A DNA stretch of 64,000 nt, from the NCBI RefSeq assembly GCF_029211325.2, contig NZ_CP135996.1:1364001-1428000 (forward strand), in the 5' to 3' direction. The notes under the pieces are model-generated. The model had not been told where the DNA came from and did no database searches. It was given only the letters and a program-made list of their open reading frames with translations. Origin of the DNA: Caproicibacterium argilliputei (GTDB taxonomy: Bacteria > Bacillota > Clostridia > Oscillospirales > Acutalibacteraceae). Position 1 is the first letter of the stretch, and every line of letters starts with the position of its first letter. Shown in pieces: positions 19,855-25,442 of the stretch. Both the position numbers and the translations under genes were made by a program.

Positions 19855-20910
19855 ATGAAACATCATTTTCAAATACGGCAGGCAGCTGCGGCTTTTCTAC
19901 TTGCGGTTTTGCTTGGGGGAGTCACAGCCGGTGCGGCAGAGCCGACTGTCAAATCGGTCAGTACGGGAGAAGCGCGAATGGTTGTGCCCTGCGGCACGCC
20001 CTTTGGTATTAAAATTTTTACAAACGGTGTAGTGGTGGTCGGCACTGCAGATTTGGAAACGGGTGCGGGGGTCGTCAATCCCGCACGAGAGGCCGACATC
20101 CGCACTGGGGACATCATTGTGTCCGTAGACGGCAAGGCAATAACCAGTAACGAGCAGCTCTCTCATACAATTTTGAGCTGCAGTGGGCGTTCTTTAACGC
20201 TTGGGGTGGTGCGCAACGGTCAAAAGCTTTTGGCAAAACTTTCGCCTGTGCAGAGTACGGGATGTTATCGTGCGGGTCTTTGGGTGCGCGACAGTGCTGC
20301 CGGAGTCGGCACTTTAACGTATTATGACCCGCAGAACGGAACTTTCGCGGGTCTTGGCCATGGCATTACAGATCCGGACACAAACGAGCTTATCCCATTT
20401 GGATGCGGAGATGTTGTTCCTGTTACCATTTCTGGAATTCAAAAAGGGGTGCAGGGTGTGCCGGGGGAATTGCAGGGATACTTCGACTCGGATATTCCAG
20501 CCGGCACGCTCTATGCCAACAGCTTGCAAGGTGTGTTTGGAACGCTCAACCATGCTCCGCAGGGGCGGGCAGTCCCGGTTTGCCCGGCGGAACAGGTGAA
20601 AACCGGTCCGGCTGAAATCCTTTGTACCATCGACGGGAAAACACCTAAAACGTATCAAGCTGAGATTGAACTGCTGAATACGCGGGTGTCACAAAGCAAA
20701 AACATGATTTTGCACGTTACCGATACGCAGCTGATTCAGAAAACTGGCGGAATCGTGCAGGGGATGAGCGGCAGCCCTATTTTACAAAATGGAAAACTGG
20801 TGGGCGCTGTCACCCATGTTTTTGTGAATGACCCGACTAGAGGATATGGAATTTTAGCAGATCATATGCTGACAGGAGCGGCGGAAGCGGCACAAAAAGC
20901 GGCTTCTTAA
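19855..20910 (+). CDS. spoIVB: SpoIVB-type S55 serine peptidase
   Basis: Sporulation protease with a PDZ domain; in Bacillus it is secreted from the forespore and starts activation of pro-SigK. The 351-residue protein has an N-terminal signal anchor (residues 8-27), a PDZ domain (about 70-125, READIRTGDIIVSVDGK), and an S55 peptidase domain with the His loop G-L-G-H-G-I-T-D-P-D and nucleophile serine in V-Q-G-M-S-G-S-P-I. It is shorter than B. subtilis SpoIVB (about 425 residues), mostly at the N-terminus. Its place directly before spo0A is the classic spoIVB-spo0A order. ATG follows GAGGAGGTG. Confidence 0.93.
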   Translation: MKHHFQIRQAAAAFLLAVLLGGVTAGAAEPTVKSVSTGEARMVVPCGTPFGIKIFTNGVVVVGTADLETGAGVVNPAREADIRTGDIIVSVDGKAITSNEQLSHTILSCSGRSLTLGVVRNGQKLLAKLSPVQSTGCYRAGLWVRDSAAGVGTLTYYDPQNGTFAGLGHGITDPDTNELIPFGCGDVVPVTISGIQKGVQGVPGELQGYFDSDIPAGTLYANSLQGVFGTLNHAPQGRAVPVCPAEQVKTGPAEILCTIDGKTPKTYQAEIELLNTRVSQSKNMILHVTDTQLIQKTGGIVQGMSGSPILQNGKLVGAVTHVFVNDPTRGYGILADHMLTGAAEAAQKAAS

Positions 20911-20961: not shown

Positions 20962-20990
20962 TTGCTATCTTTGGTAATATATGGTAATAT
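20962..20990 (+). promoter_or_regulatory. Sigma-A-type promoter for spo0A
   Basis: TTGCTA (20962-20967), 17-base spacer, TATAAT-like TAATAT (20985-20990), 31 bases before the ATG at 21022. The spacer and -10 contain a direct repeat of TGGTAATATA. No spo0A-type SigH promoter was recognised. Confidence 0.55.
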
Positions 20991-21021
20991 AATGGTGCAA
21001 AAAATCTTAGGGGGACTAAAT

Positions 21022-21774
21022 ATGGAGAACGTAAAGCTCATGATTGCAAATGACAATCCCGAATATCAGCGTGAGAACAACCAGATCTTCGAGGAAAGCG
21101 GCTTTTCGGTCGTTTACACGGCGAAAGACGGCACTTCCCTGCTGGAAGCCATTGAAGCGCAGCGTCCAGATGCTGTACTGGCACCCATCTTCATGCCCGG
21201 TCTGGATGCCGTGGGAGTCCTCAATGCGCTTCAGGAGCACCGCATTGTCAAAATTCCGGCATTCGTGGTGGAAAGCAACTTTACCAGCCCGACTTTAGAG
21301 CGCGAGGTTTTATCTTCCGGCGCCTGCTACCTTGCTGTGCAGCCTTATGAAACTGTACAGCTGGCCAAACGCATCCGGCAGCTGCTAACCATGGACAATC
21401 CGGCGGTACCCTGCCAAGAAACTCTGGAAGTGCAGGTAACAGAAATTCTGCATCAAATTGGCGTTCCGGCACACATCAAAGGCTATCATTATCTGCGCGA
21501 TTCCATTTTAATGGCCATTGAAGATCCAGACATCATCAATGCGGTGACCAAGCAGCTGTATCCCGGTGTGGCTAAAAAGTACGAAACCACACCGTCCCGC
21601 GTGGAACGTGCCATTCGCCACGCCATTGAAGTGGCGTGGGACCGGGGGGATGTGGACATATTAAATTCGTACTTTGGCTATACCATCCATAACACACGCG
21701 GCAAGCCGACAAATTCGGAGTTCATCGCCATGATTTCCGACCGTCTGCGCTTGCACATGAAGACCGCAGGGTAA
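21022..21774 (+). CDS. spo0A: Spo0A with a degenerate receiver domain
   Basis: Master sporulation regulator homologue, 250 residues. The C-terminal domain (about 135-250) is canonical: I-G-V-P-A-H-I-K-G-Y-x-Y-L-R, the S-R-V-E-R-A-I-R-H-A-I-E-V-A-W recognition helix and K-P-T-N-S-E-F-I-A-M. The receiver keeps the fold but has lost its chemistry: A-P-I-F-M-P-G-L-D puts proline (P55) where the phosphoacceptor Asp of the L-D-I-x-M-P motif belongs, A-N-D-N (residues 9-12) has one of the two acidic residues changed, and the K-P of the active site is Q107-P108. It cannot be phosphorylated at the usual site. The reading frame is intact, so this is not simple decay. Start ATG behind AGGGGGA. A second, normal Spo0A may exist elsewhere. 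Confidence 0.93.
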   Translation: MENVKLMIANDNPEYQRENNQIFEESGFSVVYTAKDGTSLLEAIEAQRPDAVLAPIFMPGLDAVGVLNALQEHRIVKIPAFVVESNFTSPTLEREVLSSGACYLAVQPYETVQLAKRIRQLLTMDNPAVPCQETLEVQVTEILHQIGVPAHIKGYHYLRDSILMAIEDPDIINAVTKQLYPGVAKKYETTPSRVERAIRHAIEVAWDRGDVDILNSYFGYTIHNTRGKPTNSEFIAMISDRLRLHMKTAG

Positions 21775-22010: not shown

Positions 22011-22120
22011 AATTAAACATTATTTAAAAGGGTGGGCCAAATGGGCTGATTAAATCCGGCAAAGTGCCGGGAGTGTAACTGTGCATTATTGTTTTGAAAA
22101 AATCAAGGAGGAACATTAAA
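22011..22120 (+). promoter_or_regulatory. Structured 5' leader, class unknown
   Basis: Between the -10 box and the ATG at 22121 lies a G-rich stretch in an otherwise AT-rich region. It holds two TGGGC repeats with a small GCC-AAAT-GGC hairpin (about 22032-22048) and a stronger CCGGCA-AAG-TGCCGG stem-loop at 22058-22072, then GAGTGTAACTGTGC. The shape suggests a riboswitch or structured leader, but it does not match the c-di-GMP, cobalamin, purine, glycine, THF, ZTP, SAM or guanidine consensus sequences I know. The ribosome site AAGGAGG follows at about 22105-22111. Confidence 0.4.
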
Positions 22121-22927
22121 ATGAAAAAAAGTAAAAAAACAGTATCACTTTCGCTTCTTGTAGCTTGTATTGCCACTCAGCTTGCTTTCCCTGTAAATGT
22201 ATTTGCAACTCAAATTGCTCCAGATACAGGCACATCCAGTGCAACTGTTCAGACGGAAATTCCAGACAGAATGGAACCCGATACAATCATTCGATACACT
22301 TCTCCGACACAATACATAATTGTACAGGGCGGGAGCTGCGATGAAACAGCGCAGAAAGAGCTGAATGCCCTTTTGGCAGAGAAGCAGAAGTACCTTAATG
22401 AGCATCAGCAAGAGATTCAAGACGGTTCATTGACGATCATTAAGAGTCCAACGCCTGTTGCGGGAATGGTAGTAAAGTATGACGGTGAGGGGTATCAAAA
22501 AGAGATCACACCGGATACAGAGAACCATGCGGTAAACGACAGCAAAGTCTCACTTTCAGCATACCGTGGGCATTATGCAGCAAATGGAAACTATTCGTGG
22601 GGAAGTCACTCAAACAGGATGAAGATAACTAGCTCTACTGTGTCAGGCTCCGGTCGATTCACCAATTTCACGGATACGATTGGTGACCACAACAACTACC
22701 TAAAAAAAGGTGACGTTGCAACAAAGGGCGCATATGATAATCCGCCAAGTGAGACTGCCGTTACATGCACAGCAAATAGGAAGACCGTTAAAATGTATAA
22801 AAACGACAATGGAGGTCTCCCAGATGCGTGCCTTGACATTTGGAAGTATGGCACAGAATATTTTGGTGTAACCTGGCATAGTTATGTGTCTATCGATCAT
22901 TCTTCGTTCAGCCATCCTAAGGCATAA
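22121..22927 (+). CDS. Secreted protein of unknown function
   Basis: A 268-residue protein with a clear signal peptide (MKKSKKTVSLSLLVACIATQ ... NVFAT). The mature part has no family I recognise. It contains a Q/E/K-rich helix (about 75-105) and, from about 145 on, a G/N/S/H-rich beta-like region with SAYRGHYAANGNYSWGSH, TNFTDTIGDHNNYL and a C-terminal WKYGTEYFGVTWHSY with several aromatic and His residues. ATG at 22121 behind AAGGAGG. Base composition is AT-richer than the flanking housekeeping genes. It is followed by a terminator-like hairpin and a lipoprotein gene. Possible toxin, bacteriocin-like or surface protein; none is shown. Confidence 0.8.
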   Translation: MKKSKKTVSLSLLVACIATQLAFPVNVFATQIAPDTGTSSATVQTEIPDRMEPDTIIRYTSPTQYIIVQGGSCDETAQKELNALLAEKQKYLNEHQQEIQDGSLTIIKSPTPVAGMVVKYDGEGYQKEITPDTENHAVNDSKVSLSAYRGHYAANGNYSWGSHSNRMKITSSTVSGSGRFTNFTDTIGDHNNYLKKGDVATKGAYDNPPSETAVTCTANRKTVKMYKNDNGGLPDACLDIWKYGTEYFGVTWHSYVSIDHSSFSHPKA

Positions 22928-22942
22928 TACGTTTTGATTCAG

Positions 22943-22978
22943 CATCATGCACAGATTTTTGTGTGCATGATGTTTTTT
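22943..22978 (+). terminator. Rho-independent terminator or attenuator between islet genes
   Basis: CATCATGCACA (22943-22953) pairs perfectly with TGTGCATGATG (22962-22972) and T6 follows. The ribosome site AAAGGAGAG of the next gene begins right after the T run, so the hairpin both ends the first gene and may limit read-through into the second. Confidence 0.8.
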
Positions 22979-22993
22979 AAAGGAGAGAAAACC

Positions 22994-24118
22994 ATGAAAA
23001 AAGAGAAAGCACTTGCGGTGATGACAACGGTTTTCATATTCATTGGGTTTGTCGGGTGCAGGGACAGCCAGACAGTGAACAGTGCGGTGTCGAAACCGAT
23101 GTCCGCTGTTTCGACCAACAGTACAAAAGAGAATAGTATTGCCAACAGTCAGCCCGCGAAAGCGGCACAAAACGGATACATTTCCTTTGCAATGACGAGT
23201 TATGATGACCCGGATAACAAGGACGGCTCGATGACGATCCACGTTTTCTGTTACGACTTTACAGCGCAGAAAGCGACGGAAGTTACAAAAGTGCCGTATA
23301 CGTCCCAATACCCGTTAGCGGTATACAGCAAAGAGGATAATTGTGTTTATTATTCTGCGCAAAGCACGGATAAGGGGAATAGAGGTGACCAATTATTTTC
23401 CTATAATCTCAGCACCAAGAAAACGGTGGAGTATACGCACGATTTGTCAGCAATTAATGATATTATCCCTTACAAAGATACGATTTATTTGTCAGCGATG
23501 AAAAGCAAAACTCATAACGTAGCACCCATCCTCATCAGTAAAACCAGTAAGATAGAAACGGCGGTTCATACAGGTTTTGAAGATCCACATGTTGAAAAAA
23601 TTGCATATGACCCTTATGCTCACAAGGTATATGCTGCATGTCAGTCTGATAATGCAGAATGGATTTTAATGGATAAATTCAACATGAGTGCCGAAGAAAC
23701 GAAAAAAAAGAATAATTATATGTATGAACATTCAAATACTCATATTAGCGCTGTGGATTTAGATCGGTCATTGTCAAGTCAGATATTTGCATTAAAAAAA
23801 GATCTTATTTATCGAATGGCTGCACATGGAAACCAAATTTACTATGTATCAGGAAAAGATGATATGGAAAGCGCTGCAAGCGAAACCATTCGTCAATATA
23901 ACATCCAGACAAAGCAGACTACCACTCCTATACGAATTGGGAAAAAGGGAGATACCGCAGATACGATTTGCTACAGCCAAGACGGAAGCAAGGCTTATTT
24001 TTTGCGGCAGGACCCGCGTGACCTGGTAGAGTATGACATGAAGACCAAAGAGATAAAAGAATTGTTTTCCTGTGACCCAAACCAAAGCTATATCAACAAT
24101 TTTATGTTGTTTGCGTAA
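22994..24118 (+). CDS. Lipoprotein, beta-propeller-like, unknown role
   Basis: A 374-residue predicted lipoprotein. The signal segment ends in I-G-F-V-G-C, with C22 as the lipidated cysteine, followed by a S/T/N/Q-rich linker to about residue 55. The rest shows repeated short blocks of a strand, a turn and Y-Y-S/Y-V-S (CVYYSAQSTDKGN, TIYLSAMKS, QIYYVSGKDDMES, KAYFLRQDPRDL) as in WD40/DUF5050-type propellers. ATG at 22994 behind AAAGGAGAG. AT-rich like the secreted-protein gene upstream. No binding partner can be named. The IS3 element lies 94 bases downstream. Confidence 0.8.
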   Translation: MKKEKALAVMTTVFIFIGFVGCRDSQTVNSAVSKPMSAVSTNSTKENSIANSQPAKAAQNGYISFAMTSYDDPDNKDGSMTIHVFCYDFTAQKATEVTKVPYTSQYPLAVYSKEDNCVYYSAQSTDKGNRGDQLFSYNLSTKKTVEYTHDLSAINDIIPYKDTIYLSAMKSKTHNVAPILISKTSKIETAVHTGFEDPHVEKIAYDPYAHKVYAACQSDNAEWILMDKFNMSAEETKKKNNYMYEHSNTHISAVDLDRSLSSQIFALKKDLIYRMAAHGNQIYYVSGKDDMESAASETIRQYNIQTKQTTTPIRIGKKGDTADTICYSQDGSKAYFLRQDPRDLVEYDMKTKEIKELFSCDPNQSYINNFMLFA

Positions 24119-24183: not shown

Positions 24184-24294
24184 GGGAGGGCTCTTTCAGC
24201 GGTTCAGTTCAGGTTGAACTGCCCCAGTAAAAACGGACATTGCAAAAAAGCCTCCCATCGTAGGATAATTAAACTACGAAGGGAGGCAATTTTT

Positions 24295-24588
24295 ATGAAA
24301 AGAAGTTGGACGAATATAAAAGCATTTGAGCCGAAAATTCTGGCGATGAGGGCAGCAGGAAAAACGAGACAAGAAATTGCAGATGAATTAGGATTAAACA
24401 AAATTCAGATAAAGAACTGGATTAACCGACACAACAAAGAAGCAGATCGTGAAGAAGCAGGACTTTCGCCAAAGAGACGGGGGCGTAAGCCTGCCGTCAC
24501 ATTGCAAGAATACAAATACGAGAACAAACGGTTAAAAATGGAGAATGATTTGCTGCGGGATTTTCTTCACGCTGTTGGAAGGAAGTGA
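24295..24588 (+). CDS. IS3-family transposase OrfA (helix-turn-helix)
   Basis: A 97-residue protein with an N-terminal HTH (F-E-P-K-I-L-A-M-R-A-A-G-K-T-R-Q-E-I-A-D-E-L-G), a basic linker (SPKRRGRKP) and a leucine-rich C-terminal coiled coil (YENKRLKMENDLLRDFL), the usual OrfA plan for end binding and dimerisation. ATG at 24295 follows GGGAGG. Its stop overlaps the orfB start by four bases (GTGA). In IS3 elements the fused OrfAB made by -1 frameshifting is the active transposase; the orfB frame is open back to 24549, but no A6G or other standard slip site is evident there. Confidence 0.93.
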   Translation: MKRSWTNIKAFEPKILAMRAAGKTRQEIADELGLNKIQIKNWINRHNKEADREEAGLSPKRRGRKPAVTLQEYKYENKRLKMENDLLRDFLHAVGRK

Positions 24589-25442
24589 AAGCTGCCATAA
24601 AATATGAAGTAATCTATTGTCGCAGTGAGAAATATCCGGTAAGAATCATGTGCAAATTCTTTGGGGTATCGCGCAGCGGCTACTACGACTATGTAAAGCG
24701 CCGTGAATTACTGCCACGTAATACAAAACTTGCTGGACTCATAGCGGAGTGTCAGAAAAGCTGTGGTAAAACTTACGGTTACAGACGAGTTCAAATTTGG
24801 TTGGAACGTAAGAAATCTTTGCATTTCAACCCTAAAACGGTTCTCCGCATCATGAATAAATATGGTTTGCTCTCTGAAATACGTCGTCGTAAGAAGTACA
24901 AGCAAATGGGACAGCAACTTCACAAATATGAAAACGTGTTGAATCGAAACTTTGTTGCCGACAGACCTAATCAGAAATGGGTAACAGACATCTCATACAT
25001 ACACACGGCCCAAGGTGTTCTATATCTGTCTATGATTCGCGATCTCTTTGACAACAGCATTGTCGCCTACAAGACCGGAACCGAACAGACGGTAAATCTT
25101 GTTTTGAATACAATCAAACTTGCTGTGGAAAAAGAAGCGGCCGCCGGGGAGTTGCACCTCCACAGCGACCAAGGGTTTCAATACACCTCACAAGCATATT
25201 TCAACCTAACCAAAGAGTACGGCATCACACCATCTATGTCAAGACGTGGTAACTGCTATGACAATGCATTGGCTGAAAATTTCTTTTCCATTCTTAAAAC
25301 TGAATGTATTTACCGCCATAAGCTTTCCTCTTTTGATGAAGCAAGACAACTGATCGATGAATACATAGATTTCTACAACAATGAGCGCATCGAAACAAAA
25401 ACGCACCTGACACCACTTGAAAAGCGGCATCAGGTTGCGTAA
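24585..25442 (+). CDS. IS3-family transposase OrfB (DDE integrase core)
   Basis: A 285-residue rve-type integrase. The catalytic triad is complete: D135 in W-V-T-D-I-S-Y, D195 in H-S-D-Q-G-F-Q-Y, and E231 in N-A-L-A-E-N-F, with the classic 35 residues between the last two. An HTH_21 region (CQKSCGKTYGYRR) precedes the core. It begins with GTG at 24585 and shares GTGA with the orfA stop. No internal stop or frameshift is seen, so the element may still be mobile. Confidence 0.95.
   Translation: MKAAIKYEVIYCRSEKYPVRIMCKFFGVSRSGYYDYVKRRELLPRNTKLAGLIAECQKSCGKTYGYRRVQIWLERKKSLHFNPKTVLRIMNKYGLLSEIRRRKKYKQMGQQLHKYENVLNRNFVADRPNQKWVTDISYIHTAQGVLYLSMIRDLFDNSIVAYKTGTEQTVNLVLNTIKLAVEKEAAAGELHLHSDQGFQYTSQAYFNLTKEYGITPSMSRRGNCYDNALAENFFSILKTECIYRHKLSSFDEARQLIDEYIDFYNNERIETKTHLTPLEKRHQVA

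Follow-up and report, generated by a model that had tools for sequence, protein, structure and literature searches.

The single Spo0A of Caproicibacterium argilliputei is, by its sequence, a genuine Spo0A orthologue carrying a pseudo-receiver, that is, a receiver predicted to be incapable of phosphorylation at the normal place. The gene lies in the window, by which we mean the whole stretch of 64,000 nucleotides that was analysed, together with the following features, all on the + strand.

19855..20910, +, spoIVB (PDZ and S55 peptidase, motifs GMSGSP and GHGIT), from domain matches
20962..20990, +, promoter-like element TTGCTA - 17 bp - TAATAT upstream of spo0A, conserved
21010..21016, +, ribosome-binding site GGGGGAC upstream of spo0A
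21022..21774, +, spo0A (250 aa), from translation, TIGR02875 and Spo0A_C; sole Spo0A_C match in the genome
21049..21051, +, N10 codon, replacing the first Asp of the acidic pair (ADDN)
21184..21186, +, P55 codon CCC, replacing the phosphoacceptor Asp (B. subtilis D56; Asp of LLLDIIMP)
21271..21273, +, E84 codon, a residue found with Pro in 15/15 genus Pro-type tree rows
21331..21333, +, L104 codon, replacing the aromatic K-3 switch residue (genus: Leu 9/10, Phe 1/10)
21340..21342, +, Q107 codon, replacing the conserved pocket Lys (LKPF)
21595..21639, +, recognition-helix region SRVERAIRHAIEVAW; residues 193-206 invariant and S192 nearly so in a 72-sequence alignment

The 21022-21774 product matched TIGR02875 (spore_0_A) over residues 3-248 with 268.5 bits, against a cut-off of 200. 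Its Pfam-type domains were Spo0A_C (157 bits) and, weaker, Response_reg (40.8 bits). As the whole sequence is recognized by the curated TIGR02875 model, the protein was filed as a Spo0A orthologue and not as a phosphorylation-activated one. The score of the DNA-binding half and the invariance of residues 193-206 bear out the first-pass annotation, which had called this half canonical and had placed the gene after spoIVB; spo0A is indeed directly 3' of spoIVB in the window. The promoter-like element is common to 8 aligned genus sequences and to the sister genus, the others reading TTGCCA. The complete genome (one contig of 2,904,997 bases, 99.94% complete) holds one Spo0A_C match, and the idea of a second copy competing with a normal Spo0A, raised when the gene was first annotated, was rejected on this ground. 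Two open frames with export signals by eye and no Pfam match follow spo0A at 22094-24118, and farther downstream, at 24214-25442, is a pair of IS3-type transposase frames encoding an HTH protein and an rve integrase. At gathering scores, the window gave no Rfam match.

The positions of the receiver residues were taken from an alignment with the solved Spo0A receiver 1DZ3/1QMP, which makes no use of the B. subtilis reference sequence. In this alignment P55, within APIFMPGLD (residues 54-62), falls on the Asp of LLLDIIMP and Q107 falls on the Lys of LKPF, as had been read at first. The loss of the acidic pair, claimed at the same time, is half correct: N10 replaces the first Asp, and the second acidic residue, D11, is kept. 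The Thr/Ser switch position is kept as S85 (Ser in 217/232 aligned rows), and the aromatic switch residue is changed too, to L104. Residue K+2 is Tyr here and Phe in the Trp type described below, and E84 is a new Glu that directly precedes the Ser/Thr position. An excerpt of PMC12632262 lists five receiver active-site residues (two acids, Asp, Thr/Ser and Lys), and by this count three of the five (Asp, first acid and Lys) are gone from this Spo0A.

The predicted structure presents a complete (beta-alpha)5 receiver followed by the effector helices, with P55 ending strand 3 (mean pLDDT 86.8; 8/12 ten-residue receiver blocks above 90 pLDDT; pTM 0.55). A model of the Asp- and Lys-intact Spo0A of Ruminococcus bromii (pTM 0.52) has its receiver elements in the same order, the two models being compared through their listed secondary structure alone; with pTM values of 0.55 and 0.52, the domain arrangement is unreliable in both. 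The Response_reg match and the modelled (beta-alpha)5 fold, with Asp, first acid and Lys lost, are those of a putative pseudo-receiver.

The same state was found throughout the genus, represented by 11 genomes (our own, G000, and 10 others). Spo0A was found in 10/11; the remaining genome, G008 (74% complete), gave receiver-type matches alone and no spoIVB match either, so that an assembly gap is likely. Both the Asp and the Lys are absent from all ten Spo0A proteins, the Asp being replaced by Pro in six and by Trp in four. The Trp-type proteins keep both acids, the acid at the D11 position is Glu in two genus genomes, and the lost Asp is preceded by Ala, by Thr or by Ser. Across the six Pro-type genomes the proline is encoded by CCC, CCT and CCG. 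The genus rows (18 distinct, 15 Pro and 3 Trp) form one clade with an SH-aLRT of 100 in a quick tree with database proteins added. In the Trp-type genomes about 3.4 kb separates spoIVB from spo0A (L008 and L011; G005:C1:1371484-1374884 and G010:C1:1690971-1694379), and the interval holds a gene in the opposite orientation that by eye resembles an anaerobic ribonucleotide reductase. Further distant matches to the Spo0A DNA-binding half occur at G002:C1:428795-429076 and G010:C1:1592789-1593112, with 31 and 35% identity.

The receiver dN/dS is 0.028 between G005 and G010 (dS 0.25; 2 replacement and 18 silent differences) and 0.034 between our genome and G002 (dS 2.14, near saturation), and the corresponding effector values are about 0 and 0.013. 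For most other genus pairs synonymous sites are saturated, hence no ratio is claimed. Among Pro-type pairs the receiver dS is at least 1.39 or not computable owing to saturation, yet the Pro is held. Ratios of receiver to effector divergence were compared in two matched bins of effector divergence, the pairs being non-independent. For the genus (here 16 Pro and 2 Trp rows) they are 7.46 (61 pairs) and 5.33 (67 pairs), for rows with Asp and Lys intact 7.16 (23 pairs) and 4.95 (102 pairs), for rows that have the Asp and lack the Lys 6.78 and 5.28, and for other Asp-less rows 5.81 and 3.84. As the genus ratios are close to those of the Asp+Lys-intact rows, there is no measurable speed-up of the receiver after loss of the chemistry. 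When the receiver elements are delimited by hand, conservation is highest in helix alpha4 in the genus (mean majority fraction 0.94) and in strand 3 in the Asp+Lys-intact rows (0.78). The low receiver dN/dS values and the intact frame uphold the original argument against decay: the spo0A receiver is, as judged from these comparisons, under purifying selection.

Loss of the Asp also recurs outside the genus. At the phosphoacceptor column, the 232 aligned rows read Asp in 146, Asn in 41, Pro in 22, Glu in 13, Trp in 5 and Ser in 4, with one truncated; these counts are not independent, the rows being 110 loci, 121 proteins and one reference sequence, duplicates and the window included. A tree of 221 rows, from which duplicates, the truncated row and two copies of the window protein had been removed and which was built without columns 10, 11, 56 and 108, needs at least 18 Asp/non-Asp changes; supported (starred) branches alone give 8 independent contrasts, and such counts do not distinguish a loss of the Asp from its return. 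On this tree L040, L041 and P0085 make up another Pro lineage, apart from the genus, and the Spo0A of the sister genus (G035) has kept the Asp and lost the Lys and the first acid. A coupling of Asp loss to Lys loss was considered, and a test on independent pairs gave no significant result (median p 1). A further 20 Spo0A genes (17 of the same order, 3 of the same family) have Asp in 14, Asn in 4 and Glu in 2. Across the class, 88 Spo0A genes (the best 30 loci plus 58 fetched, out of 118 genomes, the weakest matches left out) have Asp in 78, Glu in 6, and Asn, Ser and Ala in one each, one being unreadable; the Lys is kept in 86/88. The presence of Asp-less Spo0A proteins outside the genus lowers the surprise of the present one. 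Among the sequences read, Pro or Trp combined with a missing Lys occurred in this genus and the L040/L041 lineage alone.

The protein resembles the Spo0A of Bacillus and Clostridioides in its two-domain full length, its place beside spoIVB, its closely similar DNA-binding half and the near-0A-box upstream of spoIIG, and differs from it in that the phosphoacceptor Asp, the first acid and the pocket Lys are replaced. With the pseudo-receivers ChxR and RitR, described in parts of PMC4395418 and PMC12632262, it shares a receiver fold without phosphoacceptor and a retained DNA-binding output, but here the Asp site holds Pro or Trp and the output is the sole Spo0A. The common Asp substitutes given in an excerpt of PMC4395418 are Glu (26%), Asn (16%), Ser (15%), Gly (11%) and Ala (9%). 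The Pro type of the genus keeps the second metal acid and has lost the first, which is the reverse of the usual pseudo-receiver pattern. The Asp-less Spo0A proteins of other Clostridia (9 of the 87 readable in the class sample) likewise carry another residue at this site (Glu, Asn, Ser or Ala); however, 8/9 of them keep the Lys, and the Glu in 6/9 is a possible phosphate mimic. No natural Asp-less Spo0A was described in the open-licence papers searched; Spo0A has 0 occurrences in the excerpted pseudo-receiver review PMC12632262, and of its two mentions in PMC4395418 the one in the excerpt concerns mutants. Asp-less and pseudo-receiver regulators are thus already known, and what appears to be new is a pseudo-receiver in the sole Spo0A.

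Two options of the first-pass annotation remain, namely that the protein is constitutive or level-controlled, or that it is controlled by another signal. The reading we favour, at slightly less than even odds, is that the pseudo-receiver Spo0A works without Asp phosphorylation, its activity being set by its level or by another signal, with spoIIG and others remaining its targets. The receiver would still pair subunits or restrain the DNA-binding domain, and aspartyl phosphate would no longer be needed for release. Activity would be set mainly by the amount of protein, made from the conserved housekeeping-type promoter; a non-phosphate signal may act on the pseudo-receiver, and early sporulation genes such as spoIIG would stay under Spo0A. 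According to part of PMC3485338, the isolated Spo0A DNA-binding domain binds its targets unphosphorylated owing to the absence of inhibitory receiver contacts, and many pseudo-receivers are activated by dimerisation without phosphorylation (PMC12632262, in part). Against this reading, the K+2 Tyr/Phe is not among the residues that the excerpt of PMC12632262 names as activating in CheY. With no phosphoacceptor, and with the protein and the spore genes kept, sporulation, if it happens, would be switched on otherwise. The broader proposal, that the genus starts sporulation without Spo0A aspartyl phosphorylation, using level control or a new pseudo-receiver signal instead, with parallels in relatives, is put forward tentatively, the chances leaning somewhat against it.

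In B. subtilis, the Spo0A-dependent spoIIG promoter combines a 0A box that covers the -35 with a spacer of more than the normal length. Upstream of spoIIGA, TTTGACA followed by a -10-like hexamer at 21-22 bp was present in 9/9 genus genomes fetched (of 11), and the sister genome has TATGACA with a 21 bp spacer; TTTGACA turns up in 4.4% of letter shuffles of the spoIIGA upstream regions. The element reads TGTCAAA on the opposite strand, not the core TGTCGAA. In an excerpt of PMC3485338 the 0A core is given as TGTCGAA, of which Spo0A contacts G5, and G5A is among the changes with which the C. difficile domain bound the abrB promoter less well; the perfect core is also missing from many real B. 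subtilis targets (same excerpt). As TTGACA is an ordinary -35 hexamer too, these data do no more than suggest that the spoIIG promoter has retained a near-0A-box -35 and an overlong spacer. The regions upstream of spoIIE and spoIIAA gave no 0A-box core common to the genomes, and the sister genome has none there either. The mismatch at the contacted base of the spoIIG site lowers our confidence in a phosphate-free Spo0A and in the broader proposal, and raises that in a cryptic programme and in a sensory receiver, both considered below.

In a search that covered HisKA-type kinases, our genome gave six, of which five adjoin a response regulator and one, a hybrid kinase, is an orphan. The latter (SBP_bac_3 - HisKA - HATPase - receiver) is at G000:C1:1877276-1880160 (L132:2276-5161, - strand), and G002 has a similar one (L284). 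Kinases beside a response regulator number 7/8 in G002, the eighth being a hybrid, and 10/10 in the sister genome G035. Among Asp+Lys-intact relatives, a receiver stands beside each kinase in G017 (12/12 read, 13 found) and in G030 (5/5). Only in G022 were there kinases, 2/13 read (14 found), that lack an adjoining receiver, one of them at a contig end, and 4 others have a receiver match in the same frame. The scarcity of orphans, shared with Asp+Lys-intact relatives, is therefore not specific to the Asp-less clade, and kinase loss as the cause of Asp loss was rejected. Spo0E-type phosphatase was found in 0/60 genomes, Asp-intact ones included, and for this reason is uninformative as a marker of co-loss.

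An unlikely reading is that sporulation is cryptic or being lost in the genus, the phosphorylation chemistry fading because the programme no longer has to be turned on, and Spo0A surviving for other stationary-phase jobs. Spores were not observed in Caproicibacter fermentans and Caproiciproducens galactitolivorans according to part of PMC7873966, and an excerpt of PMC6675982 calls C. galactitolivorans non-spore-forming; with such relatives, the sporulation programme may be silent. The words 'spore', 'sporulation' and 'Spo0A' are absent from the text of PMC9600882 on Caproicibacterium lactatifermentans. SpoIIE and SpoIIAA were both found in 11/11 genus genomes, with scores that fall short of the family cut-offs, as they do in each of the 60 genomes searched. 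The SpoIIE match of the genus, split into two pieces, has a best E of about 5e-52 to 3e-60 and is thus much weaker than that of the sister G035 (2.9e-119), a weakness shared by G028, G031 and G036. The SpoIIE of our genome is located at G000:C1:2357618-2359645, and the profile match is likewise weak in the 10 congeners. SpoIIGA, present in 11/11 genus genomes (in two pieces in G001 and G003), scores somewhat lower in its complete copies, at 1e-48 to 4e-56 against 3e-66 in the sister. The single orphan HisKA kinase of our genome would also fit a fading programme, though it is unspecific. However, SpoIVA (11/11 genus genomes, the G003 copy being a fragment at a contig end), alpha/beta SASP (10/11, missing from the 81% complete G006) and SpoIVB (10/11) score as in other relatives and contain no internal stop. 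SpoIVB, moreover, is under purifying selection (dN/dS 0.04 to 0.22 at dS 1.8 to 3.0, in genus pairs with a computable ratio), and its motifs GMSGSP and GHG[IV]T are intact in the 6 loci read from the genus. The conserved spoIIG promoter element likewise argues against a lost programme.

It is rather unlikely that the pseudo-receiver is an allosteric sensor which a small molecule or a partner protein, instead of phosphate, turns on and off. Pseudo-receivers controlled by ligands or by partners have been described (PMC12632262, in part), the receiver remains constrained, and the Pro-type receivers of the genus share the new acidic E84. On the tree one change suffices for the acidic residues at this site, where the other Pro lineage has Val in both of its tree rows; however, E84 arises in the same clade as the Pro and is not independent evidence. 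Phosphorylation of Spo0A by a kinase on another residue (D11, S85 or another Ser/Thr) is improbable: D11 and S85 are kept here, and an excerpt of PMC12632262 cites GlnR as an atypical regulator phosphorylated on Ser/Thr, but the D11 position is Glu in two genus genomes, the variable Ala/Thr/Ser before the lost Asp provides no conserved acceptor beside it, and one acid and the Lys are lost. An artefact, whether a sequencing error at the codon, a wrong frame or a misalignment, has a negligible chance and is refuted by the agreement of six genomes on the same Pro through three codons and by the solved-receiver alignment.

Endospore formation is regarded as starting with the phosphorylation of Spo0A, and the clade described here keeps Spo0A and spore genes without the phosphorylation site. 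The Pro, Trp, Asn, Glu and Ser variants would serve as natural replicates for the roles of the receiver beyond phosphate receipt. In a genome survey, as an excerpt of PMC11536998 has it, the presence of spo0A was taken as the first criterion of sporulation potential. The present case is a warning that the presence of spo0A does not imply a phosphate-operated switch.
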